DNA of 37,206 nucleotides, from the IMG/VR virus record IMGVR_UViG_3300027917_000097, positions 1 through 37,206 of that record. The stretch is one strand, 5' to 3'. This DNA comes from a virus. The notes below the pieces were generated by a model. The model worked only from the letters and a program-made list of their open reading frames with translations, was not told the origin of the DNA and did no database searches. Positions within the stretch are counted from its first letter, which is position 1. The number at the start of each line of letters is the position of its first letter. Positions 6,701-37,206 of the stretch are shown here, in pieces. The position numbers and the translations under genes were made by a program.

Positions 6701-9700
6701 TACGTTCTCAGAAGATCCTGTGCATGCGGAAACTGTTGGGGATCCAGGGTGGCCCAATGCCGCATGAAATTCTCATGAATTCTCTGCTTCATGCCTTCAT
6801 ACTGAGCCTTCAAATCCGGCATCTGCATACCGTGCCGGCCCGTGATACTACCTCGTACATGCTCCGGGATGGCATCCTTCAGGGGCCCACCGAAGAACTT
6901 GCGCCGTTTGGATCCCAGCGTGATCTTGCCGACCGTGCCCCAGATATCCCTGGCGGTCCTTGAATAGTCCTGATGCTCTGCAAACAGGTTCGGGGTCTGG
7001 GATCGGGCCGGCAACTCCCCACGTTCCGCAGCCTTGCGGCTCCGAATGAGAAGATCCCGGATGTCATTGTCGGACCATTTCACGGTAAAGCCCAGGTCGC
7101 GCATCATGTCCCGGATCCTGGAGTAGACCCGTGCCATGAAGTTGGGCTTGATATCTTGCTCGGCCATCCGGGCTATCATTTCCCTGGCAGCCTGGAACCG
7201 ATGTCCGGGATCCTCCAGATCCAGGCCGTAATCCTCGGCAATCTCCCGCAGGCCCGGCTTGGCGTACATGGCGACCACTTCCCGCAAAATCTGCATGAAC
7301 TTCTCGCCACCCCACCGTTCGGGCGCTACGTGCCCCCAGAGGGCATGCGCCAGGGTTCTTTCTGCATCCTCCCGGTTCTCGATGTTGCTGGCCACGAATG
7401 CTATGGTGTTGGAAGGCCGGTCCCAGACCTCCTTGATTGTTTCCGGTCGGTAGGGGTTGCCTCGAAGCTGGGTATGATCGTCCAGGAACTTGATGTGCAG
7501 ATCCAGGGAATCATAGAACGGCCCGACAATACCCATCACGATATCCCGCACTTCGTCCCGCTTCATGCCAGGATAGGTGCCGGTGAGGCCGCTGCGCATG
7601 TATTCCTGGTCGTCCTTCTTGCGGCTCTTTCTCTTCTTCTTCTGGGTAGGCTTGGTTTCCTTGACGGGTATGTCTGAAGGAGGCGGCACGTTGATCTTTC
7701 GTTCGGCTATGAAATCTTCCATCAGGGCAGAGTGCTGCCTTTGGTCCCCGATCCGCAGAGGCATGGTGACCCCTACCCATTTATCGTCCTGCCTCCAGAG
7801 TGTCTGCCGGGCGTTCTCCACGAAATAGGGCTCCGCACCCGGCCAGGCGGTTTGGATAATATCCACGAAATCGGCGTTCATGGTAATGGTCTGCTTGCCG
7901 TCACTTATGACAACGTGGTGAACTTGATCGAAAAATCCTTTTTCCTCTGCAATGATTTCAGCCTTGTAGGTTTCCCTGCCTTCTGGAATCAAGATGGACG
8001 TAAAATCTCCCTCGTTCGGGCCTACTTGGCTCGAAAGGAACTTCTCGGGCTCCTTCAAACGAGGGTTGCGCCGTAGTGCATACCCGCCCTGCGTGATCCA
8101 TTCCCGGTTCTTGTCTACCCATAGTCCTCTATTTCTGTCGGTCACCCTTTCAGTAGGGGCCCAGGTGCTTTCAACGATCTTGGCTGGCTTGTACTCGGCC
8201 ACATATTCGTAATGCTCGTATGCCTCCTTACCTTGAGGCACCCGCCGTTCTCTGGGTGTTTCCGGCTCGGCCTTGAGCTTGAGATCCCGTTCCATGGGCT
8301 TGCCAGGGAAATGGCTCTTGACCCGGCTTTGAAACTTGGTCAGCGCTTCCTTGGTGTTACGGACCCTGAACCGACCGTCCCCCGGAACTTCGAAGACCGC
8401 CATGTCCTCGGCCACATCCACGGCTACCGTGTCGGTCTGTTTCGGGGCTTCCTTCTTTGCCCGTTCGATGGATTCGTGTAGGGCTTTCTTCTGTGTCTTC
8501 TGCGTGATCTCTTCTGTAATGACGACCGCAACCTGCTTTTCGGTAACATCGGTAGCTGCCGGTTTTGGGGCTTCAGCGATACCTGCAGATATCCCTGTAG
8601 GCTTGGGCTTGAATTCGCGGGCCTGTCCAAAAGCCGCTTCTATCTTTCTTGGAGCTACGGGAAAGTCTTCTTTTTGAAGTCTTGCCTTCTTCAGAACATC
8701 GTCATACGCTCTGCTGGCTGTTTCAAAGCTGGGATAATTTACAAGGTGAACCTCCACATCTGCTGCGTTCAGTACACGAATCGATCCGTACTCTACGCCA
8801 GATTCCGTTTCTCTGCGATAGAGTTCGTATTTGACACCCCCATACGTGTGGGTATCTCGCCGCTTTGAATCCGGAGGCAATGCTTCGACCTCTGGTACTG
8901 CTGGCGCTTCTTCCTCGGCGGGTGGCGCAGGAGCCTCCGCAGGTGGTGGGGCCTCTTTCTCCACCTTCCCTTCCCAGGCCCGTATGGCATGATCTTTTGC
9001 AAAGAGCTGGGCTGCCTTGAGATCCTTGTTGAACGGCTGACCCCTGACTCCTGCAATCGTTGTTTTCTCGCCCTTACGAATAATCTCTACCACATAGTTG
9101 TCATTGGCATCGGTGGTAATCTTGTAATCGGTTCCGTCCGGACCCCTGGCCGCACCCTTCGCCACCAGTTGATCGTGGAACTTGTCCATCTCGTCAACGG
9201 GAGCCTCGGGAGCCGGAACCGCTTCTTTTTCTATGGGAGTTGGCGGTGGGGCTGGGGCTGCAGGTTTTTGTTTCTCTCCGAATTCGGGGGACTTCCAGCC
9301 CATTTCTTTTGCATATTCACGCAATGCGGCTGCGGCCTCTTCCGGGGTATCCCAGAACCGCTGGCGGTCATGGCGCAGCTTTAACCGTGTGCCCTGCCTT
9401 TTGAGATCCTTGGTACGATAGAAACTGAAGTTGCCATGTGGCGCTTTGCCCACATGAATATACCAGCCGTTTTTGTCCAGGAATGCGGTTCTGCCCGGAG
9501 TGCCCCATGCCTCCTTCTCGGGTGCTTTTTCCGGTGTGGGCTTGAAGCCTTTCTCGTAAGAGATCCCCCTCATGCCCTGCACAAGGGCACGGTTTTCTGG
9601 GGTGTCTGGAAGCGAACCAGCCCGTCTTTTTGATCCAAGGGTAGCTGCTCCGCCTTCGATAAAGCCTTCTCTTTCCTCAAGTACGGCCCGGATACGGGCA

Positions 9701-12700
9701 TTGGCTTTGCCGCTTCCACCAAAAGTAATGCGAAGTCTTGGGCGCTCTGCAGCGGGTGCGGGCCCACGTTCCGGCTCGGCGGTTCTGCGCACCGCTGCCT
9801 TACGGGCCATCGGGCCGGCTCGCTTGTGCATCTCCTCGATACCCAGCCATTGCATCTGCTGTGCTATCCAGTCATCCTTGGCATCGTCTGGAAGCTCTTT
9901 GTACTCCTTGGTTTCCATCAGCCGATCTGCAACGTCAGCCATTATCTCGGTATCGTCCAGGCCAGCACGATCCCTGAGTTCAATCAGTTCTTCCTTGATC
10001 TCACCGCGCAGTTGGCTTATCTCTTTGATCTGTGCCCGCAGCCGGCCACCATCGGCGGTGATGTCCACATCGCCGGCGGCCAATTCCCGAACCAGATCGA
10101 CTGTAGGCTGGAACCTGGGGCTGGCGTAGGTGATGCCCAGGAGGTGTAACTTGGGGGGGCCCTCCCCATCCTTGTACAAAGCCCGGATATCCTCTTCCGT
10201 AAATCGGCCCTTGTTCATGGGGATGGCAATGCGGACATCATTCAGGCCAATGGCTTCCATTGCCGCTTTCCAGACAGCTTGTGGAGGTCTTCCGCCCTTC
10301 TGTATCGGCACAATGACATCCACGGCTTTGTTCCACAGGTTTTTGATCCTATCGCTGTACTTCTTTTGCACTAACAGGGTTTCAGTCTGTCCATCCCCGG
10401 TCTTGGCAGCCTTGGGCAATACATCCGGCATGACCATGTGCAGGTTGGGCCGGTTCTCTCGCTTGACGGAATTGGCCAGCTTGTCATAGCGGTTCAGCAC
10501 CTTGTCAAAATTGGTCGGTTCTTCCTGGGTGGCCTTGTAAGCCCCGGAGTCTACAAATATGTGTCCACCCTCGTTCGCGTACTTGACAAGCCTCTTCTCC
10601 GCGGGCTGTGAAGTAATTCCGATCTCCACCCCTACCGGCACACCCTCATCGATGTATCCCTCCAAGACTGTTACGCCCTCCGCCCCGGATCGGAAGGTCA
10701 TGGGCTCCGGCTTTTCCGGGGCTGGTGCCTTCTTGGAGAAATAGATATCAGCAATTTCTTCCAGTTGTTTCTTTTCTTCTGCCTCTTCGGGGAAAGTTGC
10801 AAACGGTGGTGGCGGGGCCTCTTTGGCAAGTGAGTCCCTGTATGGCCGGAAATCGACAACCTCGAAATCGCCCTGGCGCGGGTTTACCACCACAAGGCCA
10901 TCATAGCCGCTTTCAAGCAGATCCTTGGTCATGGCCTCGGCTGCAGCAAGTCGATCTTCGACGGTTCCCCGTACCGTAGTTCCGTACTCTTCCTGAAGGT
11001 CGTATGCCTCCTCAACGGTCAAGCGAAGAGGATTCTCCAACCGAACCCGTTCTTCTCTCACTTCTCCATGCGCCTTGGCTCGGGACTTCCGGCTTGTCCA
11101 ATAAAGCCCTCTTCCGAAATCACCGGGATCCGTTCGGAAGCCCTCCTTCTTCATTTGTGGCGTTTCCCCACGATACAGGGTGCCCTCAAATGGTCCTTCC
11201 TGTCCGACCTCCAATGCCGGGGTTACTGGTACGGCCTCTTCGGTCGGCTTGGCTTCCTGGGCCTCAAGGATCTGGCCGATAACGGGATCCAGCCGTTGAC
11301 TCTCTGCCTTGGACAAACCCCTGGCCCTGGCGATGGCACGGATCCGATGGCCGGCCTTCATCTTCTTGAACTGCATCAATTCTTCGCGGGTGTAGACTCT
11401 TTCTTCGAGTTCCTTCTGCAGACGTTCCTGACGAGCTTCCTGTTCCCGGAGATTGGCAACGGCCTCGGCCGGCGTGTTTCCTACCGCGACCTCCCGGCCT
11501 TCCTTGGCATGGAAATCGGAGTATGCAGTCCAGAAGTTCGGGGCTCCACGGTGGGTCCATTCCAGACCAACCTCGACCCCTTCATGTTCATGGATGTTGG
11601 TGATCGTGCGCCCATGCACCGGATCCTTGCGGGTTTCCCCAGCCGGTGCTTCCATGATGGGTTGATACTTATCCTGTGTTAAATCCTCGGCCAAATATCG
11701 TTGAAGGTCGGCTATGGATTGATCGCGTTTTTCCGGGGAAGCCTTCTTGTGTCCCTTGTCGATCTTTACGGTCTGTCGCCGGATACGTTCAATGGTGCCT
11801 TCAATGTGACCAGCGGCCTCTACAAGGTTTTCGAGGAACATGGGCTTACCACCCCACTTGCCCACGTTGGACAAGCCGATGCCCTCTTCGATTCGAGCAT
11901 CGAGTTCTCCCAGCTTGGTCAGGGCTTCTCCGAGGACTTCGGGTGGAAGTTTGGCTTCTCCCCATCCTTCGGGCAATGCCTCCGCTTCCGGCTCCTCCGG
12001 CGTAACCGGAGCCCGTGCGGCCTCGGCGGCCTCGACAGCCGCAAGTTCTTCAGGGGATGGTGCCGCCGCTTCAGCCGCCATTTCTTGCGCAATGGCTCTC
12101 CTTACTTCGGGCTCTGGTACTTTCTCAGGCGTGATATCCGGGGTTGGTTTTTGAAGCTCCTTCTCAGCCCTTTTCAGCTCCTCCGTAACTTCCTTCTCTT
12201 CCGTGGGGATTGGCCCTGCCGGTCGCTCCTTGACTTCCTCCTTTGGACCTTCCGGCAGTTTGGTAAGGTCTGTATCGAGCTGGATTCGCAAGCCTTTGCT
12301 AATCAGCTCATTGGCATTGTTGGCCCATACCTGGGCAATCTCCGGGTCTGCCTTTGCCAGGGCCTTCTGCACCCTTCTGCTAACGGCCAAGCGGTCTGCC
12401 TTGCTGGCATCGGGATCCTGAAGTGTATGGGCCTCATCTCTGCGGATTTGCCTCGCTCCGGCTTCCACAAGGCCAAAAAAGAGGATGCTGGCGACTGCCG
12501 TGGGCCCCATCACGTCCTTGGCTGCCTCCCACATATCCTGGTCGCCAAGGTTGATCTTTCGTGCTGCCTGTGCCTGCATGGCGGCTGTGCTCATCTCGCC
12601 GGCAACTTCACCCGTGGTGACGGCTGCCCATCGTGCCAGGGTTTCCTTCATGCCCGTGGCAAAGACGGTTTTCAGGCCTCCCTTCAAGGCTTCCTTGGCT

Positions 12701-13425
12701 ATGCCGGCCCCTGGCGCAAACTTCATGGCCCCGGCGAATATAAGGTCGCTCAGAACTTCTCCGCCAGCTTCGTACAGGGCTGATTCCAGGGCTACAGGAG
12801 CACTTTCTTCACGGCTAATGCCGGCCTCGTCGGCCTCATCCAGCCTCCTGCTATACTCTGCAGCTCCAAACAGGGTGCCACCAGAGGCAATGTATCCCAG
12901 GATGGCTCCAGGAATGCCTCCTCCCAGAAGCCCGCCCGCGATCGTGGCCGGTGCCCTGGCCGTGAGGGAGGTCATGGCTTGCTCCACGCCTTGCACAACG
13001 GCTCCCTTGAGACTCCGAGGATCCTGGTACTCCGGCCCCAGGATCATCTCGGGGGTGCGTCTTGCCCATGCCTCGAAGCCTTCTTGCTGCTCCATGGCCC
13101 ATTGTTCGATCGGGCCCAGTTCCTCCCCAGGGCTTTGCAGTACCTCCCCGATGGTCTTCACCACGGGAATGCCCACATCTCCCCAGGTCTGGGCCACGCC
13201 CCTTTTGCCTGCGGCAATGATCTCACCGACAAAACCACGGTCTGCAGCTTCTTGCTGTGCTTCTGCTTCTTCAAATTTTTGAATTCGTGCAAGCATGTTC
13301 TTGGCGTTAATTGGAGATATAGGTGCGCTTTCAAATTGTTGAATAGCTTCGAGCGTGACCGGAGAAGCTTTTTGTTCTTCCGGCAAGAGTCCAAGTCTTC
13401 GCTGTATATCTTTATTCGCTGGCAT
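3760..13425 (-). CDS. Giant polyvalent virion protein (3221 residues) with ART-like, TGT/DpdA-like and degenerate zincin-like domains
   Basis: The gene covers about a quarter of the window. Order along the protein: residues 1-150 charged helix; 155-195 Gly-rich hydrophobic stretch and another at about 300-320; 400-520 Glu/Pro/Ala linker; 745-862 ADP-ribosyltransferase-like domain (Arg752, Thr777, Glu855); 910-1140 TGT/DpdA-like region (Asp959 in VDSGAY, Asp1001, an IQKGG loop, LLGI, Asp1122/Asp1125); several small beta-alpha modules separated by Pro/Ala/Glu linkers; 1985-2145 polyvalent zincin-like domain (HALWGH, residues 2027-2032); 2200-2690 helical; 2690-3000 conserved module with NNLSGD and PFYAWKEINI followed by a hydrophobic helix. 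The start ATG overlaps the previous stop (TAATG) without a clear SD, so translation is coupled. Position matches the ejected internal virion proteins of podoviruses. Such multi-domain 'polyvalent' proteins are known to enter the cell with phage DNA and counter host defence; that role is inferred here. Confidence 0.85.
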   Translation of the reverse strand: MPANKDIQRRLGLLPEEQKASPVTLEAIQQFESAPISPINAKNMLARIQKFEEAEAQQEAADRGFVGEIIAAGKRGVAQTWGDVGIPVVKTIGEVLQSPGEELGPIEQWAMEQQEGFEAWARRTPEMILGPEYQDPRSLKGAVVQGVEQAMTSLTARAPATIAGGLLGGGIPGAILGYIASGGTLFGAAEYSRRLDEADEAGISREESAPVALESALYEAGGEVLSDLIFAGAMKFAPGAGIAKEALKGGLKTVFATGMKETLARWAAVTTGEVAGEMSTAAMQAQAARKINLGDQDMWEAAKDVMGPTAVASILFFGLVEAGARQIRRDEAHTLQDPDASKADRLAVSRRVQKALAKADPEIAQVWANNANELISKGLRIQLDTDLTKLPEGPKEEVKERPAGPIPTEEKEVTEELKRAEKELQKPTPDITPEKVPEPEVRRAIAQEMAAEAAAPSPEELAAVEAAEAARAPVTPEEPEAEALPEGWGEAKLPPEVLGEALTKLGELDARIEEGIGLSNVGKWGGKPMFLENLVEAAGHIEGTIERIRRQTVKIDKGHKKASPEKRDQSIADLQRYLAEDLTQDKYQPIMEAPAGETRKDPVHGRTITNIHEHEGVEVGLEWTHRGAPNFWTAYSDFHAKEGREVAVGNTPAEAVANLREQEARQERLQKELEERVYTREELMQFKKMKAGHRIRAIARARGLSKAESQRLDPVIGQILEAQEAKPTEEAVPVTPALEVGQEGPFEGTLYRGETPQMKKEGFRTDPGDFGRGLYWTSRKSRAKAHGEVREERVRLENPLRLTVEEAYDLQEEYGTTVRGTVEDRLAAAEAMTKDLLESGYDGLVVVNPRQGDFEVVDFRPYRDSLAKEAPPPPFATFPEEAEEKKQLEEIADIYFSKKAPAPEKPEPMTFRSGAEGVTVLEGYIDEGVPVGVEIGITSQPAEKRLVKYANEGGHIFVDSGAYKATQEEPTNFDKVLNRYDKLANSVKRENRPNLHMVMPDVLPKAAKTGDGQTETLLVQKKYSDRIKNLWNKAVDVIVPIQKGGRPPQAVWKAAMEAIGLNDVRIAIPMNKGRFTEEDIRALYKDGEGPPKLHLLGITYASPRFQPTVDLVRELAAGDVDITADGGRLRAQIKEISQLRGEIKEELIELRDRAGLDDTEIMADVADRLMETKEYKELPDDAKDDWIAQQMQWLGIEEMHKRAGPMARKAAVRRTAEPERGPAPAAERPRLRITFGGSGKANARIRAVLEEREGFIEGGAATLGSKRRAGSLPDTPENRALVQGMRGISYEKGFKPTPEKAPEKEAWGTPGRTAFLDKNGWYIHVGKAPHGNFSFYRTKDLKRQGTRLKLRHDRQRFWDTPEEAAAALREYAKEMGWKSPEFGEKQKPAAPAPPPTPIEKEAVPAPEAPVDEMDKFHDQLVAKGAARGPDGTDYKITTDANDNYVVEIIRKGEKTTIAGVRGQPFNKDLKAAQLFAKDHAIRAWEGKVEKEAPPPAEAPAPPAEEEAPAVPEVEALPPDSKRRDTHTYGGVKYELYRRETESGVEYGSIRVLNAADVEVHLVNYPSFETASRAYDDVLKKARLQKEDFPVAPRKIEAAFGQAREFKPKPTGISAGIAEAPKPAATDVTEKQVAVVITEEITQKTQKKALHESIERAKKEAPKQTDTVAVDVAEDMAVFEVPGDGRFRVRNTKEALTKFQSRVKSHFPGKPMERDLKLKAEPETPRERRVPQGKEAYEHYEYVAEYKPAKIVESTWAPTERVTDRNRGLWVDKNREWITQGGYALRRNPRLKEPEKFLSSQVGPNEGDFTSILIPEGRETYKAEIIAEEKGFFDQVHHVVISDGKQTITMNADFVDIIQTAWPGAEPYFVENARQTLWRQDDKWVGVTMPLRIGDQRQHSALMEDFIAERKINVPPPSDIPVKETKPTQKKKRKSRKKDDQEYMRSGLTGTYPGMKRDEVRDIVMGIVGPFYDSLDLHIKFLDDHTQLRGNPYRPETIKEVWDRPSNTIAFVASNIENREDAERTLAHALWGHVAPERWGGEKFMQILREVVAMYAKPGLREIAEDYGLDLEDPGHRFQAAREMIARMAEQDIKPNFMARVYSRIRDMMRDLGFTVKWSDNDIRDLLIRSRKAAERGELPARSQTPNLFAEHQDYSRTARDIWGTVGKITLGSKRRKFFGGPLKDAIPEHVRGSITGRHGMQMPDLKAQYEGMKQRIHENFMRHWATLDPQQFPHAQDLLRTYQEAAHAAVEEVLYRIKTWVGDLTPEQYDLFSLRIVFGDLLRDIESKVITPPPAGLEGVGTWLPFKFQSREEVEETLANIKELVEQDPQVAEALQKRNDWMRDFRHQQVDAKLLPEEVRDIEEYFHHQVLEYMEERRSPGVSSQDVRTKRRPYQIARKDQITAKDYNIEYVESEFEVLMQGLVNYETKETMDEIERIYDKSKELNKQAKIQNNVRYRQRWEGMYKNEEITPKEYEQGPFYEERRMIAGAIEKLHKMAYKGTLEGRGEFDDLVEDLRENWEEYRARLAEADKEEKKYIHLAPIDDPRFFEFYRYLIKNKMDGSGPAAAIFRAINSRENKKKEALGKYYTTWEQLARDRGLEVYVPQPHTAWHIEATFPESLLTKYFEGVRDLTKEDKKEVLVRGIDKKWAIPPEVAATMESFRRVEPGSWVGERAERLQSLWKQYILIMPLRVLKYNLNNLSGDLDIVIAAAPGILKYGYGAAKDLARWSRQKGDVSDIEEEMLHASKMAVTSSGWARVETPDVLRRMNERDFMKHISGEHPGFPAQVEKWYGKARTFTIWRENILRLAAYRYYKDKLKEVAKNEVELNEFGVSNPDEIRALLQDGQYDRVAAKLARELVGDYGNISPAGQWLRAKVMPFYAWKEINIPRYYRLFRNIPHEGRSMGEMMPRMSAAFAKKGVGVAFKATLLYSAVSLYNSVVWPEEEEELGMTGRRQLHLILGRRPDGSIMTLRFQGALSDAMNWFGLEDFPDDVKDLASGKKNFYEWMKEGGKAFTNVWAQGIGPQYKTPAEIATGRALWPDVFKPKPIRDRVEHVFRVLAVEKLYNEFAGKPTRGESVPGKLFQHISQLLVYTADPQEIAYHEIRQEANKFLERHQLVKPSVEPTKRSNALYYYKQALKYGDVKAAEKYLQKYVDLKGTTRGLKISIRLAHPLAGIPVKYRQAFVHTLDPEDRRRLRQALGWYENTYLKVYRGGAKGSSK
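6991..7473 (-). other. Polyvalent zincin-like domain with the catalytic Glu replaced
   Basis: Residues about 1985-2145. RTLAHALWGHVAP aligns with the HE-x-x-GH helix of polyvalent-protein metallopeptidases, but the residue after His2027 is Ala2028 where Glu is expected. The downstream helices (REMIARMAEQ, RIRDMMRDLGF) keep the family pattern. Both His are retained, so zinc binding may persist without hydrolysis. Confidence 0.55.
10006..10698 (-). other. TGT/DpdA-like domain of the giant protein
   Basis: Residues about 910-1140. The motif order follows the tRNA-guanine transglycosylase barrel: FVDSGAYKA (Asp959, compare DSGGF), HMVMPDV (Asp1001), VIVPIQKGG (compare IVQGG), HLLGIT (compare LMGVG), then VDITADGGRLRA with candidate nucleophiles Asp1122 or Asp1125. 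DpdA proteins, which insert 7-deazaguanine bases into DNA, are shortened members of this family. Assignment rests on motif order only. Confidence 0.5.
10840..11193 (-). other. ADP-ribosyltransferase-like domain of the giant protein
   Basis: Residues about 745-862. The first strand ends LYRGE (Arg752), the second region reads GLYWTSRKSRA (Thr777 in the Ser-Thr position), then ENPL, GYDGLVVV, and FEVVDF with Glu855. This R-[ST]-E order with ENPL and GYDG is what I know from the ART domains attached to phage polyvalent proteins. If active it would transfer ADP-ribose from NAD to a host target. All three motif residues are present. Confidence 0.65.
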
Positions 13426-15085: not shown

Positions 15086-18000
15086 TTATGAGCCAAGGTC
15101 TGGGTAATAGTTGAAATAACTCAGTTCGCCCAGATATTCTTGCCAGTTGTGAGCTTTTGCTTGCGACCAATTCCAGGTGCGATTGATAGATTCAGTCAGG
15201 GTGTTTGATAGCGATTTGCTTTGATGCATGGAATAACTGAGCTGGGAAAGAGCTGCTGATTGCGTTTGCGCAGAGCCAGCAATTTCGGCTGCACTTATGC
15301 GGGCCTGCATATCGATTTCGGCAATGGCTTTCCGTATGGCACTATCAGCTTCCTTGACACAAAGTTCCATGTTGTTGCGATGTTCTTCCACACGGCCCCT
15401 AAAGACTGTTGTGACTGCATTAACTTCTTGCTCGAATCTCTTCACGTCTGTATCGTAGAGTGCCACACGGTATCCTTGTTCTTTGGCGATAATTTCTGCC
15501 TCTGCTATGGCTGCTTGAATTTCACTTTTGTATTTCTCAATCAAAGCTCGGTAAATATCCACTTCCGCCTTGTTTTGTTCTACAGCCATTTGCACACGGG
15601 CGATATCGATATCAGCCCTTGTCTTATATGCCCGAACTTCCTCCCCGTATGCACCTACACGGCTTGCATAAAGGTCTACCTTGGCCTGTTCCCCCTTTAC
15701 TTGCGTTTCATATCCACTAAAGCGTGCTATACCTGCTTGCACCTCTTCTCCATATGCTTGAATTCTGGCTTTGTAGGCCTCTACACGATCCCGATTGATG
15801 GCCGATTGAATCTTTGCAGCCTCCATTTGCGATTTGAACAGTTCGAGTTCGGTTGCTTTTGCATTCACTTCGGTGCCGTAGGCATCCACCCTGGCCTTAT
15901 ATGTTTCTGTACGATCTCGATTAATGGCACTTTGCACTTTGGCTCCCTCAATTTGTGCTCGATACAATTCGAGCACTTGATTAAGTGCCTTCACTTGTTC
16001 CGCATATGCCTCCACACGAGAGCGATATGTTTCTGTACGATCCCGGTTGATACCGCTTTGAATCTTTGCAGCTTCCATCTGCGATCGATACAAATCGACG
16101 GAAATGTTAAGGGCCTGTACTTGCTTTGCGAAAGCATCCACCCTGGCTCGGTATGCCTCTACCCGATTTTGGTTAATTTCGCTTTGAATGCGGGCGGCTT
16201 CCATGCGCACTCGGTAAAGATCGATCGTAGTGCTTTCGGCTTTTACCTGCTCTCCATATGCCTGCACACGGCTGCGATATGCTTCCGTACGGTCCCGATT
16301 GATTTGGCTTTGTATCTTCGCTCCTTCCATACGTGCTGAGTAAAAGGCGATCTCCTTGGCTTCGGCTTCTACTTGGGTGCCGTAGGCATCTACCTTGGCA
16401 CGATAGGTGTCTGTACGATTGCGGTTAATATCACTTTGAATCTTTGCAGCGTCCATTTTCTTGCCATAGAGATCCAGCTCCGTAGCCTCTGCCTGTACTT
16501 GCGTAGCATAAGCATCCACCCGTGCTTTGTATCCTTCAATGCGGTCCCGATTGATACCGCTTTGAATTTTGCCCGCCTCCATCTGTGCCTTATAGAACTC
16601 AATTTCGGTGGCCTGTGCCTGCACCATTACGGCATATGCTTCTACACGGGACTTGTAACTTTCGATACGGTCCCGATTGATGCTACTTTGCAGCTTGGCT
16701 CCTTCCATTTCGGCACGGTACAGATCAATAAGGGTGGCGGTGGCTTGCACTTGCGCTTCATATACTTTGACAAGGGCCAGTTGCACATCGACAGTAAGGC
16801 GCAGCCCTTCGATCATAATGCGGTATCGTTCGGCACGAGCAATTTCGGCACGCACACGAGCTTCGAAGACTTGCGCATATACTTGATACATCTGTGCCTG
16901 AGCCTTGTAGCACTCCACCTTGCCCTGATAAATCATTACAGCAGCCTCAATGGCGAACTTGGCCGCTTCCAAAGCACGGGCTTGGCGTTGATTCTCGTGT
17001 TGTGTAAGTAACTGCTCGAGATTAAATCCCTGCTCAAACATAAAATGCGTATTTGTTTGTGCCAGCTTGCTTTCCTGGATGAGAATATCGTTGTTGAGGT
17101 CTTCTCGGGTTTGGGCAATCTTGTTACGGGCCTCCATGACCGTGGCATTCAAAATGCCAGCAGGAAGTGCAAAACCACGAGAGGCCCAATAGCTAGTGGC
17201 TTCCAGAAGTTGCTGGTCGAGTTCCTGCTCTTGCCTGGAGATAGCCCGATCATAAATAGCCTGTTCGATGTCCGGACCCAAGCCTGTACCGCCCTGGATG
17301 ATGTTCGATCGGATGCGTTCATCGAGTAGAGTACGCATATCGGAACTATATAGTGGCTCCTCCCACGAGAAGGTCGTATCCGGAGGGGTAATATCGATCG
17401 TCGGTGGTACACCTTCAAAGGCCGGTTCGTTGAAATCGGGAATGCTCGGAATGCTAATATCTGCAAAAGTTGGGATAGGCGGCAATGTGTACGTGGGAGC
17501 TGCAGGAATATCTACGGCAATCAGGCTAGGCTCATCTACATTCATTGCGGGCACTACATAATCGGGCACTTCTGGAATCTCTACATTGACTTCCGTGGGT
17601 TCCGCTATGGCCATTTCCGGCACCGTATAGTCAGGCACGGGAGGAATGTCCAGGCCGATTTCCGTAGGTTCTTCAATATCCATGGGCAACACAGAATAGG
17701 CCGGCGCAGTTGGAATATCTACGGACTGCTCTACTGGTTCTGGGATGTTCATGGCCGGGACGGTATAGTCCGGATTGGGAGGAATCTCTACCGTTATTTC
17801 CGTAGGATCTTCTATATTCATTGCTGGTACAGACACATCCGGAGCAGCCGGAATATCCACGCTGATTTCTACAGGGTCATCGATGTTCATGGGAGGAATA
17901 ACATGGTCAGGGGCAGCCGGAATATCCACGGCGCCTTCTACAGGAGCGTCCAGATTGAGTGGAGGGACAGTATATTCCGGTGCTGGAGGAATATCCACGC

Positions 18001-18412
18001 TGGTTTCTATTGGCGCTTCCACATCCAGCATGGGCCATACTACGGCGGGAGGCTCTGGAATCGTCACTCCAGGATCGGGCACATTAAAGGCAGGCGGATC
18101 TTCCATGCTAATAAGTACGTCCACCAGCTCTGGGGGCACACCCAGAAATGTAGGCATGCTATATACAATATCGTCGAGATCTGGAGGTGTCGGGACAATC
18201 ATGGGAAATCCGTCCAGGCCATATGCAGACATATCCTCACGAATGCATCCCGCAACCCACGGTATTTCATATTCCCTGGTCGTGGCAGTCGTCCAAATCG
18301 ATTGCAAAGCACTCACAAATCCGGCAATATTGGCATCGACACTTCCCCAATCATCGACCTCTACCACGTCCACCTTTTCAGGCGTGTTTGGAATATCTAT
18401 ACTAACTGACAT
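15086..18412 (-). CDS. 1108-residue repeat fibre: eight 23-residue Pro-rich units then eight 42-residue helical units
   Basis: Starts at ATG 18412 behind AAGAAGGAG. Residues 119-302 are eight gap-free 23-residue units of the form P-x-x-P-D-Y-x-V-P-x-M-N-I-x-x-P-x-E-x-x-V-D-I, ending in a looser Pro-rich stretch to about 345. Residues about 350-569 are helical. Residues 570-905 are eight gap-free 42-residue units built around EAAKIQSGINRDR, then YRSRVEAYAEQVKA and a LYRAQM helix. Forty-two residues equal six heptads, so a continuous coiled coil of roughly 50 nm is expected. The C-terminal 200 residues stay helical. There is no signal peptide. It is probably a virion fibre, tail shaft or internal scaffold-like protein; the family is not recognised. 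Position next to nozzle-like and internal proteins supports a virion role. Confidence 0.8.
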   Translation of the reverse strand: MSVSIDIPNTPEKVDVVEVDDWGSVDANIAGFVSALQSIWTTATTREYEIPWVAGCIREDMSAYGLDGFPMIVPTPPDLDDIVYSMPTFLGVPPELVDVLISMEDPPAFNVPDPGVTIPEPPAVVWPMLDVEAPIETSVDIPPAPEYTVPPLNLDAPVEGAVDIPAAPDHVIPPMNIDDPVEISVDIPAAPDVSVPAMNIEDPTEITVEIPPNPDYTVPAMNIPEPVEQSVDIPTAPAYSVLPMDIEEPTEIGLDIPPVPDYTVPEMAIAEPTEVNVEIPEVPDYVVPAMNVDEPSLIAVDIPAAPTYTLPPIPTFADISIPSIPDFNEPAFEGVPPTIDITPPDTTFSWEEPLYSSDMRTLLDERIRSNIIQGGTGLGPDIEQAIYDRAISRQEQELDQQLLEATSYWASRGFALPAGILNATVMEARNKIAQTREDLNNDILIQESKLAQTNTHFMFEQGFNLEQLLTQHENQRQARALEAAKFAIEAAVMIYQGKVECYKAQAQMYQVYAQVFEARVRAEIARAERYRIMIEGLRLTVDVQLALVKVYEAQVQATATLIDLYRAEMEGAKLQSSINRDRIESYKSRVEAYAVMVQAQATEIEFYKAQMEAGKIQSGINRDRIEGYKARVDAYATQVQAEATELDLYGKKMDAAKIQSDINRNRTDTYRAKVDAYGTQVEAEAKEIAFYSARMEGAKIQSQINRDRTEAYRSRVQAYGEQVKAESTTIDLYRVRMEAARIQSEINQNRVEAYRARVDAFAKQVQALNISVDLYRSQMEAAKIQSGINRDRTETYRSRVEAYAEQVKALNQVLELYRAQIEGAKVQSAINRDRTETYKARVDAYGTEVNAKATELELFKSQMEAAKIQSAINRDRVEAYKARIQAYGEEVQAGIARFSGYETQVKGEQAKVDLYASRVGAYGEEVRAYKTRADIDIARVQMAVEQNKAEVDIYRALIEKYKSEIQAAIAEAEIIAKEQGYRVALYDTDVKRFEQEVNAVTTVFRGRVEEHRNNMELCVKEADSAIRKAIAEIDMQARISAAEIAGSAQTQSAALSQLSYSMHQSKSLSNTLTESINRTWNWSQAKAHNWQEYLGELSYFNYYPDLGS
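15698..16705 (-). repeat. Eight 126-base coding repeats (42-residue helical units)
   Basis: Exactly 8 x 126 bases in frame. Each unit has the core [KR]-[ILV]-QS-x-IN-[RQ]-[DN]-R, then Y-[KR]-[AS]-[RK]-[VI]-x-A-[YF], then a mid-unit [KQN]-A and a C-terminal aromatic at about position 38. The register is unbroken over 336 residues, as for a straight coiled coil or helical bundle. Confidence 0.9.
17507..18058 (-). repeat. Eight 69-base coding repeats (23-residue units)
   Basis: Exactly 8 x 69 bases in frame, no insertions. Conserved positions are Pro1, Pro4, Pro9 (Leu in one unit, with Pro following), a hydrophobic residue at 13, Pro16 (Ser follows in the last unit) and [VL]-[DE]-I at 21-23. 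DNA copies have diverged at synonymous and non-synonymous sites, so the array is old and kept by selection at the protein level. Confidence 0.9.
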
Positions 18413-18437: not shown

Positions 18438-20318
18438 CTAATAATCAAATGTCGGTGTCTCTGGCAGAATGCGGGCCTTGTATTGCTTACAAAGACCTAT
18501 GTTTCTGGCAGTTATCCATCCAGCCCCTTCATTGTTTGGCATCTGTACCTCGGTGTTGTACCTCGCATAGAGGGGATTCATCCGTGCAGGCACATCGAAT
18601 CGAGTTAAATGATTGCCACGCCAATTTTCTGGCCATCCATCCCCGGAATAGCATACCCCCAACCATATCTGCTGCGACTCTGCGGTGTGTATGGCAGCTT
18701 CCGGATTTGCTGAATACGGACCCGTATCCGAATCTCCACCACCAAACCCCGTGGGTCTTTGGTGTGGTCCAGGCACTAATCCGTTATATGCGCGAATTTC
18801 ATCATTTACGCAGGGATAGGTTCGCATAAGGTTAGAGGCACTTGTGGGTCTTGTATTCAATGCATACACAAGAATTTGCTGGTTTTCGCTGATGTAGTAA
18901 TACTGCAATGATGTAGAATGATTTGCTATGTTCGGATATTGATAAGGCAATTCATCATAGTCCCTGCAATGGTAATACCTTGCAGGAAAGCCGTAGTAAC
19001 CTGGATACGGCGTTTCCCAATATTTAAGGTTTAGCCAGTCTGCCCAAGTGCCTTCCGTGCTTCTGGCATAATAGTGCGGAAATTCTGTATAAGGCACTCC
19101 AAAGGGCCCTGAAGGTTCCCATCCATAGCTGCGTCCTATATTGCGGGGATCCCAATAACCCAACGGCGGCCGATTAGGCGCACCATCTCCTGTAGTTTCA
19201 TAATCGATGTACCCATGATGCCCGCTAAACAGTTCGTAAATCTCGCCGTTCATATCCAGGTATGTGGTGCCATAATTAGCCACGGTCCAGTCTGTAACAT
19301 GCACATTGTTTATTCCGTAACTAGGACCACCGGGCCATTGATACGGAACCCAATTACTGCAGTCCACGACTCTAGGAGTAGGATCTATCCACGGAGGCAA
19401 CGTGCAATAATCTATTCCGTAAGCAAGCTGTCCATCGAAAGCTTCGTTAGCATTGTGAACCGTAAAAATATTGGCATAATGCCCTGGCAGGAGCGTCCAG
19501 GGCTCTATGATACATGCTGTGGCATGATCCTGAGATCCAATAAATGCAGAGCCGTTTATCTGCATCGTGGCTTGCAAAGTGTTGTGGCAATATGATGGTG
19601 GGGGATGCCTATACGTTACGCCTCCACCTATAACCCTGGGGCTTCTTATCGTATCGCCATCCATGTCTACTACCCAGGTCGTCACCTTATTATTCGTGGG
19701 TTCGGAATATCCTAAGCTTGGATCAATGGGATTGTCTAAATAGCCTTGCCCTTCACCCCAGCGGCTCCAACTCAGCCACGAATACTGCTTGCCATTTTGA
19801 AACATATCCTCATAGGCATCGTCCTGGCCCTGAAGTTCCGGTTTGTGTCCCTTTTTGCCCTGCACTTGTAAAATATGTTCTTGTTCGGAAAACGACCGGA
19901 GAGGTCGGTAGGGGCCGTCAAACGAATGCGACTGCGAAACAAGAATGCCAATGGGCCTGCAAACCGTCTCGTCACCAAATTCGTCGTAAATTTCTAATGG
20001 CCCAAAAGCCACCATGTATGGACGATAAAGAAGTTCCTCCTGGGCAGGTTGTGGCAATTTCATTTTTTGTCGCCCCACACCTACCTCCGGAGCTTCTGCA
20101 AAAATCGTTATCAAGTTCTGCCCATTAATGCTTTCTACGCGTATATAAATCGGATAATCGGCATTCCCTCTTGTGGTATGTTTTACCCATACAGGCAATG
20201 CGCTGTTCAAGCTCTGCATCTTTTTGAAAAACATGCCAGCCTCTTTTATATGCGGCCTGGCTGCATTGAGATCCCCATAGATCCGTATGGGGGTGCCCTC
20301 ATAAGATTCTGTAAACAT
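18438..20318 (-). CDS. 626-residue aromatic-rich virion protein of unknown fold
   Basis: Starts at ATG 20318 behind AGGAAGGT. Residues 1-85 (IRIYGDLNAARPHIKEAG, then VWVKHTTRGNADYPIYIRVES) look like a compact alpha/beta N-terminal domain. The rest is loop- and strand-rich with an unusually high content of Tyr, Trp, His, Gly and Pro, most marked at about 350-470 (PYPGYYGFPARYYHCRDYDE). There are several Cys but no clear zinc motif, no signal peptide and no membrane helix. It lies between a conserved tail-region protein and the 8+8 repeat fibre. The composition fits a carbohydrate- or surface-contacting virion protein; I recognise no family. Confidence 0.65.
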   Translation of the reverse strand: MFTESYEGTPIRIYGDLNAARPHIKEAGMFFKKMQSLNSALPVWVKHTTRGNADYPIYIRVESINGQNLITIFAEAPEVGVGRQKMKLPQPAQEELLYRPYMVAFGPLEIYDEFGDETVCRPIGILVSQSHSFDGPYRPLRSFSEQEHILQVQGKKGHKPELQGQDDAYEDMFQNGKQYSWLSWSRWGEGQGYLDNPIDPSLGYSEPTNNKVTTWVVDMDGDTIRSPRVIGGGVTYRHPPPSYCHNTLQATMQINGSAFIGSQDHATACIIEPWTLLPGHYANIFTVHNANEAFDGQLAYGIDYCTLPPWIDPTPRVVDCSNWVPYQWPGGPSYGINNVHVTDWTVANYGTTYLDMNGEIYELFSGHHGYIDYETTGDGAPNRPPLGYWDPRNIGRSYGWEPSGPFGVPYTEFPHYYARSTEGTWADWLNLKYWETPYPGYYGFPARYYHCRDYDELPYQYPNIANHSTSLQYYYISENQQILVYALNTRPTSASNLMRTYPCVNDEIRAYNGLVPGPHQRPTGFGGGDSDTGPYSANPEAAIHTAESQQIWLGVCYSGDGWPENWRGNHLTRFDVPARMNPLYARYNTEVQMPNNEGAGWITARNIGLCKQYKARILPETPTFDY

Positions 20319-20321
20319 TGA

Positions 20322-20798
20322 CTACCTTCCTGAATGCAAGGGTATCAGCACCAGATCCATGGCATCTATGCTAAAATCGCAACCATCCCTGTTCTCTATA
20401 CGAAACATCCATGTAATTCCCCGCTGCTGCCTGGATATGAACAGCTTTTCCCCGTACTGCTTCTGTGCCGTCTTGTCAGGCTGCATTTCATATTGCACTT
20501 CGTTGTTGTCATCTGTTTTTACCTTGAATATTAAATATCCGCTGGTTTCATAGCCTATGTGCGCACTTCGAATGCGCTTTGGATTCGTGCGGCCGAAATC
20601 GGTGGATACCAGCTCCACGAAGGCATCGATCAAGGCGGTATTATCTTTTTGGGCACTATCTAACTCGAAAATGCCATCCTCCGAAGCTGCTAATGGCATT
20701 CCATTGAATATGCAAAAGGAATTAAAATCGTAATTGGCATATTGCGATATTGCATTGCGTTTCAGATTCAGGCATACGCCCAAGCGATCATCGGCCAT
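20322..20798 (-). CDS. Conserved phage tail-region protein (158 residues)
   Basis: Starts at ATG 20798 with GAGGTGGTG upstream, three bases from its 3' neighbour's start region. The pattern is one I know from many tailed phages: an N-terminal CLNLKRNAISQYANYDFNSFC segment (here split by differences), then DGIFEL, STDFG-x-x-x-x-KR, SGYLIFKV, and a C-terminal W-x-F-x-I-x-N-x-x-G-x-DF-x-ID-x-M segment. It is a beta-rich virion protein usually found beside tail or head-completion genes; its exact role is not defined. Good context support here: it sits between the 576-residue and 626-residue virion proteins. Confidence 0.7.
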   Translation of the reverse strand: MADDRLGVCLNLKRNAISQYANYDFNSFCIFNGMPLAASEDGIFELDSAQKDNTALIDAFVELVSTDFGRTNPKRIRSAHIGYETSGYLIFKVKTDDNNEVQYEMQPDKTAQKQYGEKLFISRQQRGITWMFRIENRDGCDFSIDAMDLVLIPLHSGR

Positions 20799-20799
20799 G

Positions 20800-22530
20800 T
20801 CACCACCTCGAATGCCTAAGTACGATAGTTGACCATCGGGTTATATCTTCAATGACTCCACCCGGCAATACAGGATCTTCGGACCCGCTGGGCTCTGCGC
20901 CCATGTATGGAGGTCCGATTTCTGCGTCCAGCTCCATAAATGGCGTGAGTAACATGCTGGCATCCAGATCCGGGGATGGAAGAATACGATCCAGGGTTGC
21001 ACCAAAGCCGCTAATCGCCGTGGCATCCAGACGCAGCCATGACAGGGATTCCTCTAGCCAGGCCTGCCCTGTGTACATGCTGGCTTCTATGCGGAACGTC
21101 CAGAGGTGGATATCCGCTACGGTGCTTATAGCGGCAGAGGCCGCAGCCTCTACTTGCAACCATGGCAGTTTCTTGTCCAGATTGTTCTGCTTGTGCGTGG
21201 CAGAAGCCAGGATTTGCACGATTGGCAATGTTGCATCCAAGATAGCTTCCGTACTGATAGAAGCCTCAAATTGCAACACGGGCAATGCGCCGGAAAGTTC
21301 ATTTTGCTTGTGCGTAGCCAGGGCCCATATGTGTAAGCCGGGCATATCTTCAATAAGGGCTGTTGGCCCCCCGGCTGTGGCCAAAAGCTCGAGCATAAAC
21401 AGGTCTGCATCCACAACACCCGCACGACCGATGTGTGCCACGAGTTCAAGATGAAAGAAATCAGCATCCAGCCTGCTGGCCATTCCACCCGTGGCGCTCA
21501 GTTCCATTGGCGGCAAGTGCCTATCCAGGCTTAGGAAGCGTTCCCGGCCGCCTGCTGCTTCAAAGAGGAACGCTGGAATCTTGGCATCCACTTCCATGTC
21601 CATGGGCACAATCATGGAGATATCGAGTGTGGTTACGGGCAGAGAGCCTTGTACGGCATAGCCAAACCTGCCAGCAAGACGCAGAAAGCCCAGCACTTCA
21701 TCCAGGGTTGCTAGGGAGCCTGCAAGACCCGTGGCGGATATACCCAAGTCCGGAAGATAAAGATCCACTTCTGTAATAGCACCCATGGAGGCTTCCAGCT
21801 CCAGGGCCGACAAGTATTCCTCGAGTTCAGCACGATCTGAGAATTCTGCCTCTATCTGCACAACAGGAAGATAAAGAGGCATTTCGGTATACATGCGGGT
21901 GGCAATGCTTGCCGTGATTTGCAAATCCGGAAGGGTACTTACTACGGAAGGCGGTGTTGTAGCTTCTAATTCCAGGTTAAAGATGTTCTTTTCTAATGTG
22001 AGCGCATCATTTTCAAAAGCATTTTCAAAAATGTATCCCTTTTTGTCATAAGTAGTGTCTGGACCACCGGACCAAGTAACATCTGCAGCGACATTACCTG
22101 CCTTTTTATAACTCAGATATCCTGTAACATCAGCCGATTTGTGATGAACTTCGTTGGAGGCATCGGAGATGATATGTACCGAAATGATATACGTGTAGCC
22201 TGGAATGTAGTTATAAGTAAATACATCAGAAAGAGTATCTGCCGATACGTCTACGCTGGCAGAACCATCAAAATATATCTGGGTGGGTGTCTCTGCAAAA
22301 TCGTACCTGTTTCCGCCTTCTTCCAAGGCAGACCGGCCAAACCACACTTCTCCGATCCGCATAGGATTTGATCCGCCAGAATCATATCCTAATCGCAGAT
22401 AAAGTTCCGCAGCCGTTTTGCTGGCGCTTTGCACCTGATAATCAAAGGTGCAGCGGTACGTTTCCGAAGTGCTGATGACATCGGTATGTGTATCAACACC
22501 TATGGCGGTACTAAGTACGGTTTCCGACAA
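20800..22530 (-). CDS. 576-residue virion protein with 17 LPxLxxxA-type repeats
   Basis: Starts at a TTG (22530) 6 bases after GGGAGGGG, better supported than any downstream ATG. Residues 1-190 resemble a beta-sandwich with Gly, Asp and aromatic strands, as in carbohydrate-binding or fibre head domains. Residues 200-526 are a run of 17 short modules of the form [LIMF]-P-x-[LVM]-x-[LIF]-x-A spaced 19-23 residues apart (for example LPDLQITA, LPVLQFEA, LPWLQVEA). Such repeats occur in phage tail and fibre proteins and probably form a rod of stacked strands. The stop lies next to the start of the 158-residue protein. A single copy of the module ends the 129-residue protein at 3071-3460. Confidence 0.72.
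   Translation of the reverse strand: MSETVLSTAIGVDTHTDVISTSETYRCTFDYQVQSASKTAAELYLRLGYDSGGSNPMRIGEVWFGRSALEEGGNRYDFAETPTQIYFDGSASVDVSADTLSDVFTYNYIPGYTYIISVHIISDASNEVHHKSADVTGYLSYKKAGNVAADVTWSGGPDTTYDKKGYIFENAFENDALTLEKNIFNLELEATTPPSVVSTLPDLQITASIATRMYTEMPLYLPVVQIEAEFSDRAELEEYLSALELEASMGAITEVDLYLPDLGISATGLAGSLATLDEVLGFLRLAGRFGYAVQGSLPVTTLDISMIVPMDMEVDAKIPAFLFEAAGGRERFLSLDRHLPPMELSATGGMASRLDADFFHLELVAHIGRAGVVDADLFMLELLATAGGPTALIEDMPGLHIWALATHKQNELSGALPVLQFEASISTEAILDATLPIVQILASATHKQNNLDKKLPWLQVEAAASAAISTVADIHLWTFRIEASMYTGQAWLEESLSWLRLDATAISGFGATLDRILPSPDLDASMLLTPFMELDAEIGPPYMGAEPSGSEDPVLPGGVIEDITRWSTIVLRHSRW
20953..21933 (-). repeat. Run of 17 short LPxLxxxA coding repeats
   Basis: Modules of 19-23 residues (57-69 bases), diverged, in frame across residues 200-526 of the 576-residue protein. 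Two modules share a THKQN linker, hinting at a recent pairwise duplication. Confidence 0.75.
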
Positions 22531-23352: not shown

Positions 23353-24285
23353 TTATGGATCGATTAAGCCAATGTACCTACCGTCAACAACTGTACCGGC
23401 TCCCGTACGGCCAGCCGGCAACTTTGCCAGTTTGGTTCTTGTCAAATTGTAGAAGTTCCCGGTCGAACCTCCGTAGCAAATGCCTTCTGTCGATAGCCAT
23501 AGAAGCGATGGATCGGCTGCAGATACATCTATCATTGGCAAACCATCTTGCGTGATAGTAAAACGCCCATGAAAGGGCACATCTGAGTATTGAATCGGCA
23601 CGACATTGCTAATGGAGATGCGCTGAAACTCCTTCGGTTCTGCGCCTGCCACAAATTCCATTCCCGTTTTTGTACCTATCCAGAATCCATCAGTCAGAGC
23701 CCGAAACAGGATGATGTCATGCTCCACAGCAAAGAAGTTTCTTGCCAGATCGAACCGGGCAAAATCGTACGGTTCGGAATAAAAGACAAAATTCGCTTGC
23801 ACGACATACATGCGCCCACGGTAATACTGAATGATCGATCCCGTGGGCGGGCCGACAAAGGTGCGGGTGGTGTCTGGACCAACGAATGTGGAAGGCAGTT
23901 CCCAGGCAGAAATGGAGCCGTCTTCGAATATACCTTTCTCAAAGCCGTTTGCGAAAAAAACTTGTTCATTGACGGGCGCATAGGACATGCGGGCATCCGG
24001 CGTGACGGTCATTAAGGCCGTATTGGAGTAATCCGAATGCAGCATGTAGAGCGCAGAGCCCGAAACAAAGAAGCAAAGGTCTTTATACGCAAACAGGCTA
24101 TGGGCGGCCATAGCGGAACGCTGCGTGTATCCCTTACGCCTGGATATTCTTCCTGTATCATCAATATCAATGTTGTAAGCTACAGCAAGTTCCTGTACGC
24201 CGCTTTCAGGATCGTAGCGCAAACGAGCCGGGTCTATGCGGGTATTCAGGCCCGTGGTTGCACGAAACAAGACTGTTTTTGGCAA
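23353..24285 (-). CDS. Nozzle / tail-tube-like stabilisation protein (310 residues)
   Basis: A TTG start at 24285 lies 9 bases after GGAG; no better ATG is near. The N-terminus GLNTRIDPARL..., then the segment AVAYNIDIDDTGRISRRKGY, is the hallmark of podoviral tail-nozzle or head-tail stabilisation proteins (gp10 / gp12-like beta-propellers), where 'N-x-D-x-D-x-x-G-x-[LI]-x-[RP]-[RP]-G' opens the propeller. Blade-like repeats (LFAYKDLCFFVSG, MYVVQANFVFYSEP, LLWLSTEGICYGG) follow. It would plug or extend the portal-adaptor channel. Its gene follows the adaptor gene, as in other podoviruses. The family call is moderately firm. Confidence 0.68.
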   Translation of the reverse strand: MPKTVLFRATTGLNTRIDPARLRYDPESGVQELAVAYNIDIDDTGRISRRKGYTQRSAMAAHSLFAYKDLCFFVSGSALYMLHSDYSNTALMTVTPDARMSYAPVNEQVFFANGFEKGIFEDGSISAWELPSTFVGPDTTRTFVGPPTGSIIQYYRGRMYVVQANFVFYSEPYDFARFDLARNFFAVEHDIILFRALTDGFWIGTKTGMEFVAGAEPKEFQRISISNVVPIQYSDVPFHGRFTITQDGLPMIDVSAADPSLLWLSTEGICYGGSTGNFYNLTRTKLAKLPAGRTGAGTVVDGRYIGLIDP

Positions 24286-25763: not shown

Positions 25764-26738
25764 CTACGCTGCGGTCAGACCGCTGGCTGCGGTATGTGCC
25801 TTGCGATTGTTGCAAATCATGTTGCCGTCCCAATAAATGCGCATGTACTGCCCTGCTGGGCCTGCTGTGAGATCCGTCCAGGATGTCCGAGCGAAGTAGC
25901 CTTTGGAATGCACGGCCCAGCCGAAGTGATGTGAATTCAAAAGGAAGGCATAGGTGCTGGGACAGAAATCGTCCACGGCCACAATCATGCCCTCGAAGAC
26001 CAAGTGCTGAAAGCCCGCTTTTGCGGTATCTGCGTCCCGCACAAACCGCTGCTGGGTCTGCAGAATGCTGGCGATCTTGTTCCAGAGGGTTTCCGTTGTG
26101 ACCATGGTATCCGGCTTGCCGTCCATGCCGTCATGGATCTTTGCTCCCGAGCGAATCGTTCGGATGATGTCCAGGGAGATGACTCCGCCTGTGGTGTTCG
26201 TCTTTCCTTCCCAGGGTTTCGTACCGTCCCGGCTCACCAGATCGTCCTCTGCGATCGTGCCGTACTTCGTGGTGGTAGTTTCAGAGGTCATGGTGAGCAG
26301 GCCGGTCAAGTGCCTGTCGGAATCGCCACCGCTGGCATAGATGTTCTTCGCCAGATGGTTCCGGGCCGTCTTCTGGGCATTTGCGACCTTTGCGGTGACA
26401 AGCTGCACTTCGGCGTAAGCGCCGGCATTCATCAGTCCATCCGTGCGGTAGACCGTGGCGTTGCCGTAGTAATGCTTCCACTCGAAGTAGGCCGCATCGA
26501 TGATCTCCCTGTCGTCCGTGGACAGGGGATCATTGCGGGTGTACGCCCCGCCTTCGCTTTCATCGTACTCAAGCGGCACACGAATGTACTTGCCGCCGCT
26601 GGGCCTCTCCCAGAGGCCACGCTGTTTTTGCATGTAATGCTGCATGAGGAAAGACGATTGAAAATAAATGTCGGTCGCCTTGCCTCCGTCCAGGAGAAAG
26701 TAATCGTTGGTGATTTCGTTAAGTTCTTCCAGAATCAT
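25764..26738 (-). CDS. Major capsid protein (324 residues)
   Basis: ATG 26738 lies 9 bases after a perfect AAGGAGG, so the longer frame starting at 26780 inside the terminator is rejected. The protein begins with a helical arm (MILEELNEITNDYFLLDGGK), then FLMQHYM, GGKYIRVPLEYDE, an E-loop-like acidic stretch, AYFEWKHYYG, NHLAKNIYASGG, and DTMVTTETLWNKI...FEGMIVAVDD, which is the strand-helix pattern of HK97-fold capsid proteins of the podoviral / P22-distant type. It comes directly after the scaffold gene and before the decoration gene. The strong SD and the flanking hairpins fit high expression. Confidence 0.82.
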   Translation of the reverse strand: MILEELNEITNDYFLLDGGKATDIYFQSSFLMQHYMQKQRGLWERPSGGKYIRVPLEYDESEGGAYTRNDPLSTDDREIIDAAYFEWKHYYGNATVYRTDGLMNAGAYAEVQLVTAKVANAQKTARNHLAKNIYASGGDSDRHLTGLLTMTSETTTTKYGTIAEDDLVSRDGTKPWEGKTNTTGGVISLDIIRTIRSGAKIHDGMDGKPDTMVTTETLWNKIASILQTQQRFVRDADTAKAGFQHLVFEGMIVAVDDFCPSTYAFLLNSHHFGWAVHSKGYFARTSWTDLTAGPAGQYMRIYWDGNMICNNRKAHTAASGLTAA

Positions 26739-26760
26739 GTTTTGGTTCCTCCTTGAAAGC

Positions 26761-26798
26761 AAAAAACCCGGTCCTGCCATGGTAAAGCAAGCCGGGTT
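26761..26798 (-). terminator. Intrinsic terminator or processing hairpin just before the capsid RBS
   Basis: On the minus strand the arms 26792-26798 and 26765-26771 pair perfectly (AACCCGG with CCGGGTT), and five more pairs (26787-26791 with 26773-26777, one G-U) extend the stem past a bulged A, with a 9-base loop. A T-run covering 26761-26766, partly inside the stem, follows. The capsid SD begins about 8 bases later, with no room for a promoter. It may be a partial terminator, or a 5'-end hairpin left after RNA cleavage. Confidence 0.75.
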
Positions 26799-32176: not shown

Positions 32177-32188
32177 CTTCAACTCTCC

Positions 32189-37119: not shown

Positions 37120-37174
37120 TCCAGGGCGTGGCCCCGAGGGCCTGGAGATCCAGGGCGTGGCCCCGAGGGCCTGG
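37120..37174. repeat. Two exact 26-base GC-rich direct repeats, plus a partial third copy
   Basis: Identical copies at 37120-37145 and 37149-37174, each bounded by CCAGG and CCTGG (so each can fold), and a partial copy at about 37175-37187 sharing the GGCGCCTCCAGGGCG flank that also precedes the first copy. The composition is far more GC-rich than the coding part. They may be packaging-site repeats, an origin, or sequence from another source at the window edge. Confidence 0.8.
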
Positions 37175-37206
37175 CGCCTCCAGGGCGGCGCGTGGATCGG
37201 GCCAGC

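Follow-up and report, generated by a model that had tools for sequence, protein, structure and literature searches.

A fibre-like phage protein with two repeat arrays that change length together, and a proposed fold-back shaft

Why would a single phage protein carry two chemically different repeat arrays with equal numbers of units? The question is raised by an open reading frame (ORF) on the minus strand (positions 15086-18412) of a linear virus record from IMG/VR, which was analyzed at its full length of 37,206 bases and is called the window here. The ORF list and translation of the window give a fibre-like protein of 1108 amino acids. A preliminary description of the sequence took the equal copy number to be meaningful and suggested that the two parts may measure or match a structure in the particle. 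The first part of this idea stands, given that the arrays change together in relatives, while the cause appears to be a match of the arrays to each other and not to another structure of the particle. We propose, with a probability of about 0.7, that the protein belongs to an F116-type podovirus and forms the self-paired, fold-back shaft of its long tail fibres, with a fibre length that would be set by matched pairs of units.

The protein, its arrays and its gene neighbourhood

The N-terminal part of the protein (amino acids 1-127, positions 18032-18412) consists of helices predicted by AF2 with low confidence, followed by a Pro-rich lead-in. Next come eight Pro-rich, acidic units of 23 residues (amino acids 128-311, positions 17480-18031) and the core domain, where the chain is proposed to turn (amino acids 351-486, positions 16955-17362). 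A long helix is predicted, again with low confidence, from AF2 secondary structure (amino acids 418-1061, positions 15230-17161); repeat and periodicity analyses place eight coil units of 42 residues, or six heptads, within it (amino acids 548-883, positions 15764-16771). The chain ends in a C-terminal tail, non-helical in the AF2 model (amino acids 1062-1108 and the stop codon, positions 15086-15229). The core domain (GGTGL...WASRGFALPAG), identified by an HMM match (E = 5.5e-51) and by conserved columns, is among the best-conserved parts of the family, and the length measurements below are anchored on it.

Sequence similarity at lags of 23 and 42 residues exceeds that of shuffled sequences by 17 and 31 standard deviations, respectively, and neither array contains an insertion or a deletion, which confirms the presence of two indel-free arrays in one protein. 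The arrays had also been called exact, a term that fits the constant unit length but not the unit sequences: the units of the first array (consensus xMxxxxPxExxVDIPxxPxYxVP) have a mean pairwise identity of 51% (range 39-70%), and those of the second (consensus VxAYxxQVxAxxxxxxLYxxxMExAKIQSxINRDRxExYxxR) of 57% (range 50-67%). Similarly, the count of eight is correct in the chosen register but depends on it, as the periodic stretch covers 8.6 units in the 23-residue array and, depending on the threshold, 8.8 to 9.5 units in the 42-residue array. A search for tandem repeats at the DNA level found none at either array, and the arrays are therefore old.

The periodic stretch around the first array (amino acids 118-314) is 22% proline and contains 38 Asp or Glu residues and no Lys or Arg. 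In the second array, apolar residues recur with a period of 3.50 on the Fauchere-Pliska scale, where the peak has a power of 11.1 and the 99% limit from shuffles is 7.3. The heptad period is also recovered with a binary apolar scale and is not significant with the Kyte-Doolittle scale; on the first two scales, the six-heptad period originally noticed is upheld. In addition to heptad positions a and d, position c is 83% apolar. This apolar face is wider than an ordinary coil needs, and it fits a second contact face. As a helix, the second array alone would be ~50 nm long, in agreement with the initial estimate, and the whole predicted helical region (amino acids 418-1061), which is free of proline, would reach ~96 nm if continuous.

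The gene lies in a minus-strand phage structural module, in which searches of the window ORFs identified the small terminase (35418-36080), the large terminase (33737-35497), the portal (29993-32182), the major capsid protein (25764-26780) and the head-closure protein Hc3 (23353-24285), all on the minus strand. Further structural genes follow Hc3, and then come the 1108-aa protein, two small ORFs and a giant ORF of 3221 amino acids (3760-13425, minus strand) at the place of the F116p59/p60 giant proteins. The giant ORF has no Pfam or NCBIfam match, and its two halves have no PHROG match. In the F116-type module, the homologous gene is found just before the giant ORF, after Hc3 and phrog_12240/phrog_11362. 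The window keeps the position before the giant ORF and has an Hc3 homologue and a phrog_12240-like end domain, but the order of the neighbours differs, with ORF 20322-20798 preceding a 626-aa ORF (18438-20318) for which no PHROG match was found. The phrog_12240 gene, which is single in phages 8P and Y7, seems to be split in the window into two adjacent minus-strand ORFs, one of 576 amino acids with loose LPxLxIxAS-like repeats (20800-22530) and one of 158 amino acids with the end domain (20322-20798). The end of the record carries a short tandem array of a GC-rich 29-base unit (2.3 copies; 37120-37187).

With Hc3-type connector genes on one side of it and the giant ORF on the other, the gene could also encode a tail needle or ejection-conduit rod, placed between the head-closure or nozzle genes and a giant, presumed ejection protein. 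The tail needle gp26 of phage P22 is a thin coiled-coil rod of the podovirus tail; the window protein would resemble it in this rod and has a similar gene position, and it would be a coiled-coil rod without a variable adhesin tip. However, no sequence match to gp26 was found, and the window protein is much longer and has the dual arrays. At an E value of 0.001, phrog_10969 is the sole PHROG match of the protein and no Pfam model matches, which leaves it without a match to a described needle family. Moreover, the helix lengths of 51 to 96 nm predicted for the family are long for a needle, and long fibres have been described for F116-type virions (PMC5217972). We consider a needle rather unlikely, and the shaft of a fibre a likely role for the protein.

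Coupled length change of the arrays across the family

The match to the phrog_10969 profile (E = 2.6e-121) covers the length of the family in four stretches. The family has an unknown function and is known from F116-type podophages; its members include F116p57, 8P_021, proteins of phages Y7 and Y11, and a protein of a plasmid-borne Acinetobacter prophage. Whereas searches for loci with the window protein alone, or with a 20-row alignment, found none, scans of viral and bacterial contigs gathered 115 different proteins with the core domain. Their common layout is a short N-terminal helix, a Pro-rich extended region, the core (GGTGL...WAxRGFxxPxG), a long helical region and a Ser-rich or polar tail. 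Most are short forms of ~630 amino acids without real arrays, and few are long. The F116/Hollowayvirus proteins (F116p57, 8P_021 and phiC725A gp52) have a core and coil homologous to those of the window protein and, likewise, a gene position before the giant ORF. They are array-free and ~600-630 amino acids long, however, and the window protein corresponds to such a form with ~7 extra unit pairs; no function or fold has been described for this family. In Pseudoalteromonas phage Y7 and Shewanella phage Y11, the long forms are built, like the window protein, of 23- and 42-residue units in coupled counts (~5-6 each), but they have fewer units and form a separate lineage in the core tree. Six proteins with uncertain ORF ends and likely wrong starts (L029, L052, L033, L055, L165 and L113) and one truncated protein (L044) were excluded from the length statistics.

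Several records of the family have irregularities of their own. The F116 reference copy (L001, 13857-15671, NC_006552.1) is frame-shifted past the core, as are L109 and L186: F116p57 runs on out of frame and a second ORF carries the remaining coil, while relatives have a single intact ORF. This frame shift may stem from an error in the old sequencing or may be a genuine break. Public names of homologues are misleading (LigA, Rho guanine nucleotide exchange factor 11, chromosome segregation ATPase). The protein of Acinetobacter sp. ANC 7919 (L201, 7911-10433, pANC7919.1) belongs to a phage module on a 60.7-kb "non-mobilizable plasmid."

The two arrays change length together in comparisons of long forms with shorter relatives. 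Relative to the short form L013, the proteins of L009, L041 and Y7 have 168 more residues in the coil (4 × 42) and 92 more in the strand (4 × 23). The L185 protein, in which the periods are 55 residues in the strand (5.2 copies) and 103 in the coil (5.1 copies), exceeds its short sister L127 by 412 coil residues (4 × 103) and 221 strand residues (4 × 55 = 220). In the ANC7919 protein, whose coil insert is made of 18-residue repeats, the coil is longer than that of L019 by 126 residues (7 × 18) and the strand by 63, with 11 more residues elsewhere. The window protein exceeds L007 by 301 residues in the coil and 154 in the strand, or ~7 units each (7 × 42 = 294 and 7 × 23 = 161), the two being too diverged to place the inserts exactly. 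Smaller changes show the same pattern: L160 differs from its sisters by a single unit pair (42 more coil residues and 20 to 22 more strand residues), and L064 and L059 lack, relative to L060, a 42-residue coil block adjoining the core and, on the opposite side, ~19-25 strand residues near the core, in a diverged pair with further small differences.

Whenever the coil differed from that of a close relative by whole units, the strand differed too, and by about as many units. The preliminary description had named independent variation of the arrays among relatives as the outcome that would break the link between them; no such variation was found among the cases of whole-unit coil change. Across 77 rows, the part of the protein before the core and the part after it are strongly correlated in length (r = 0.98, slope 1.77), also as independent contrasts (r = 0.97, slope 1.78). 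Small length differences, with long rows and single-unit cases removed, are uncorrelated (r = 0.22, P = 0.17), and the coupling is therefore a matter of whole units. The ratio of coil to strand unit length is steady across unlike periods (42/23 = 1.83 and 103/55 = 1.87). Taken together, the sequence comparisons make a coupling of the two arrays in length well supported.

Two further observations concern the L185 protein and the upstream gene. Each 103-residue coil unit of L185 (6999-10850) contains a proline (e.g., EVPIEVHKAR), and the apolar period is 3.55 instead of 3.50; its coil must therefore be wound differently, with the strand-to-coil ratio still kept. The upstream repeat-bearing neighbour, the sole other gene compared with fibre length, ranges from 294 to 1048 amino acids (144 where the end domain alone was found). 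As a candidate third coupled component, this phrog_12240 neighbour was rejected: it is longer in the Y7 class (461 versus 384 amino acids), but its length does not correlate with coil length across the family (r = 0.18, P = 0.12).

A proposed antiparallel arrangement of strand and coil

The positions of the arrays relative to the core offer a possible reason for the coupling. When distances of the strand array edges from the core are multiplied by 1.83 (a hand computation), they predict the edges of the coil array: 79-600 predicted and 76-601 observed in L185, 68-426 and 57-453 in the window protein, and 93-306 and 71-308 in Y7. In the ANC7919 protein, the strand and coil inserts are both farther from the core. 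Because the array edges mirror each other about the core, they fit an antiparallel register in which each strand residue corresponds to ~1.8 residues of the coil. If the helix rises by ~0.1485 nm per residue, the unit ratios amount to 0.27-0.28 nm per strand residue, which is near the value for an extended or polyproline chain wound round a rod.

We propose that the chain would begin at one end of the shaft and reach the core domain as an extended, Pro-rich strand; after a turn there, it would come back as a very long coiled-coil helix, leaving both termini at a common end. Each 23-residue unit of the strand would pack on one 42-residue unit of the coil, and this antiparallel course of the strand would be the reason that the arrays match. 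The fibre would grow or shrink through paired changes in both arrays, each unit pair being worth ~6.2 nm in this virus. The window protein shares the heptad helix of trimeric coiled-coil phage fibres, and a trimer is assumed. The coupled whole-unit changes and the mirrored positions of the inserts fit such a fold-back, from which we infer physical contact between strand and coil; on these grounds, we regard an antiparallel fold-back of the strand as quite likely.

Coupled lengths by themselves need only equal span, and the two arrays could cover the same distance in the virion without touching, for example, as a coil rod and a strand that lines or tethers another component. The inserts, however, are mirrored about the core, near with near and far with far, as expected of a fold-back within one molecule, and the array-bearing neighbour gene does not track fibre length. 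We therefore judge equal span without contact to be unlikely. Coincidence or common descent, with no functional coupling, is a very improbable cause of the equal copy number: independent long lineages are few, and the rows of Y7, Y11 and L009 are of one origin, but coupled whole-unit changes occurred in at least 3 to 5 separate lineages, with two unit sizes and with both gain and loss. In the core tree, the long forms occupy separate positions, and the starred branches force at least 3 changes.

Column covariation within the short forms also hints at the fold-back. In two scans, the best line is antiparallel with a slope of 1.6-1.8; it scores 9.0 in one and 8.7 in the other, while the best parallel lines reach 3.1 and 5.2, respectively. 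Shared gaps account for most of this signal: once gaps are disregarded, the antiparallel line scores 5.3 versus 4.2 for the parallel one, and with 20 letters 5.5 versus 5.3, which makes the covariation only suggestive of an antiparallel line. For a short form, an AF2 monomer model built from 71 sequences (pLDDT 71) has one unbroken helix of 345 residues (254-598) and an extended strand region without beta structure. The first array had been described as strand-forming, and this holds for an extended chain but not for beta structure. The AF2 monomer of the window protein itself is poor (pLDDT 54). A Foldseek search against the PDB gave no match below 0.001, and the matches among viral models were F116's own homologue and two uncharacterized phage proteins only.

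The 42-residue repeat is hardly likely to be an alpha-solenoid of stacked short helices, as phmmer matches to designed 42-residue repeat proteins (4rv1, E = 7.4e-11; 4hxt, E = 2e-06) might suggest, given the proline-free region 418-1061, the apolar period of exactly 3.50 and the single continuous helix modeled for the short form. These PDB entries were rejected as relatives and their similarity judged coincidental; the matches probably follow composition and period.

An extended chain lying antiparallel on a trimeric coiled coil, the leash-in-groove, is found in influenza haemagglutinin HA2 and other class I fusion proteins and resembles the proposed fold-back. The HA2 leash, however, is unrelated, single and repeat-free and belongs to a refolding machine, whereas repeats in register and a static shaft are proposed here. 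A word-based search of a limited literature collection did not find a description of the dual-array design. We lean toward regarding it as a design in which two chemically different arrays of one chain stand in one-to-one register and length changes only by matched unit pairs, at a ratio of ~1.83-1.87 for units of 23:42 or 55:103. If the coupling is real, two separate repeat arrays clearly evolve in lockstep in this family, which raises the question of how both change together. If true, the fold-back would also offer a rule for designing rigid protein rods from modules to a chosen length, and a testable structure for a family now labeled unknown or misannotated.

Predicted fibre length and the F116-type virion

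In the proposed role, the protein would form the shaft of long fibres that an F116-type podovirus bears at its tail as a thin, tail-like appendage. F116-type phages are podoviruses, and F116 has been proposed to have tightly packed long fibres; the tail of phiC725A is thin and measures 66 nm in electron microscopy, and phiC725A does not grow on pilus mutants (PMC5217972). Type IV pili are listed as the receptor of F116 and the related EPa33 (PMC12838167). The protein encoded by phiC725A is a 630-aa short form. Because the short-form helix would be ~51 nm long and the phiC725A tail is 66 nm, the protein is a good candidate for the fibre shaft. If this is true, the length of the appendage can be read from the genome, as ~51 nm in the F116 type, 76 nm in the Y7/Y11 type and 96 nm in this virus.

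Shewanella phage Y11, which encodes the 901-aa class of the fibre-like protein, was described as siphoviral, with a tail of 72.2 and a head of 57.8, no units being printed beside these values (PMC10846135). Among the scanned structural proteins of Y11 (L202, L203; vB_SbaS_Y11), no match to a tail-tube or tape-measure protein was found, and a podovirus-like Hc3 is present. The "tail" of Y11 may be a bundle of long fibres, and a fibre shaft of this kind, if real, may also explain why the phage was described as a long-tailed siphovirus despite these genes. Other genes could also make the visible appendage; candidates are the gene for a 1386-aa protein of phrog_11272 and the Y11 gene labeled "tail assembly" (phrog_9600). 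The raw tail lengths of Y11 (72.2) and phiC725A (66 nm) are only ~6 nm apart, where the helix lengths predict a difference of +25 nm. Scaled post hoc by the head, the reported values give a Y11/phiC725A tail ratio of 1.48, close to the predicted helix ratio of 1.49, an agreement that lends weak support to the length prediction.
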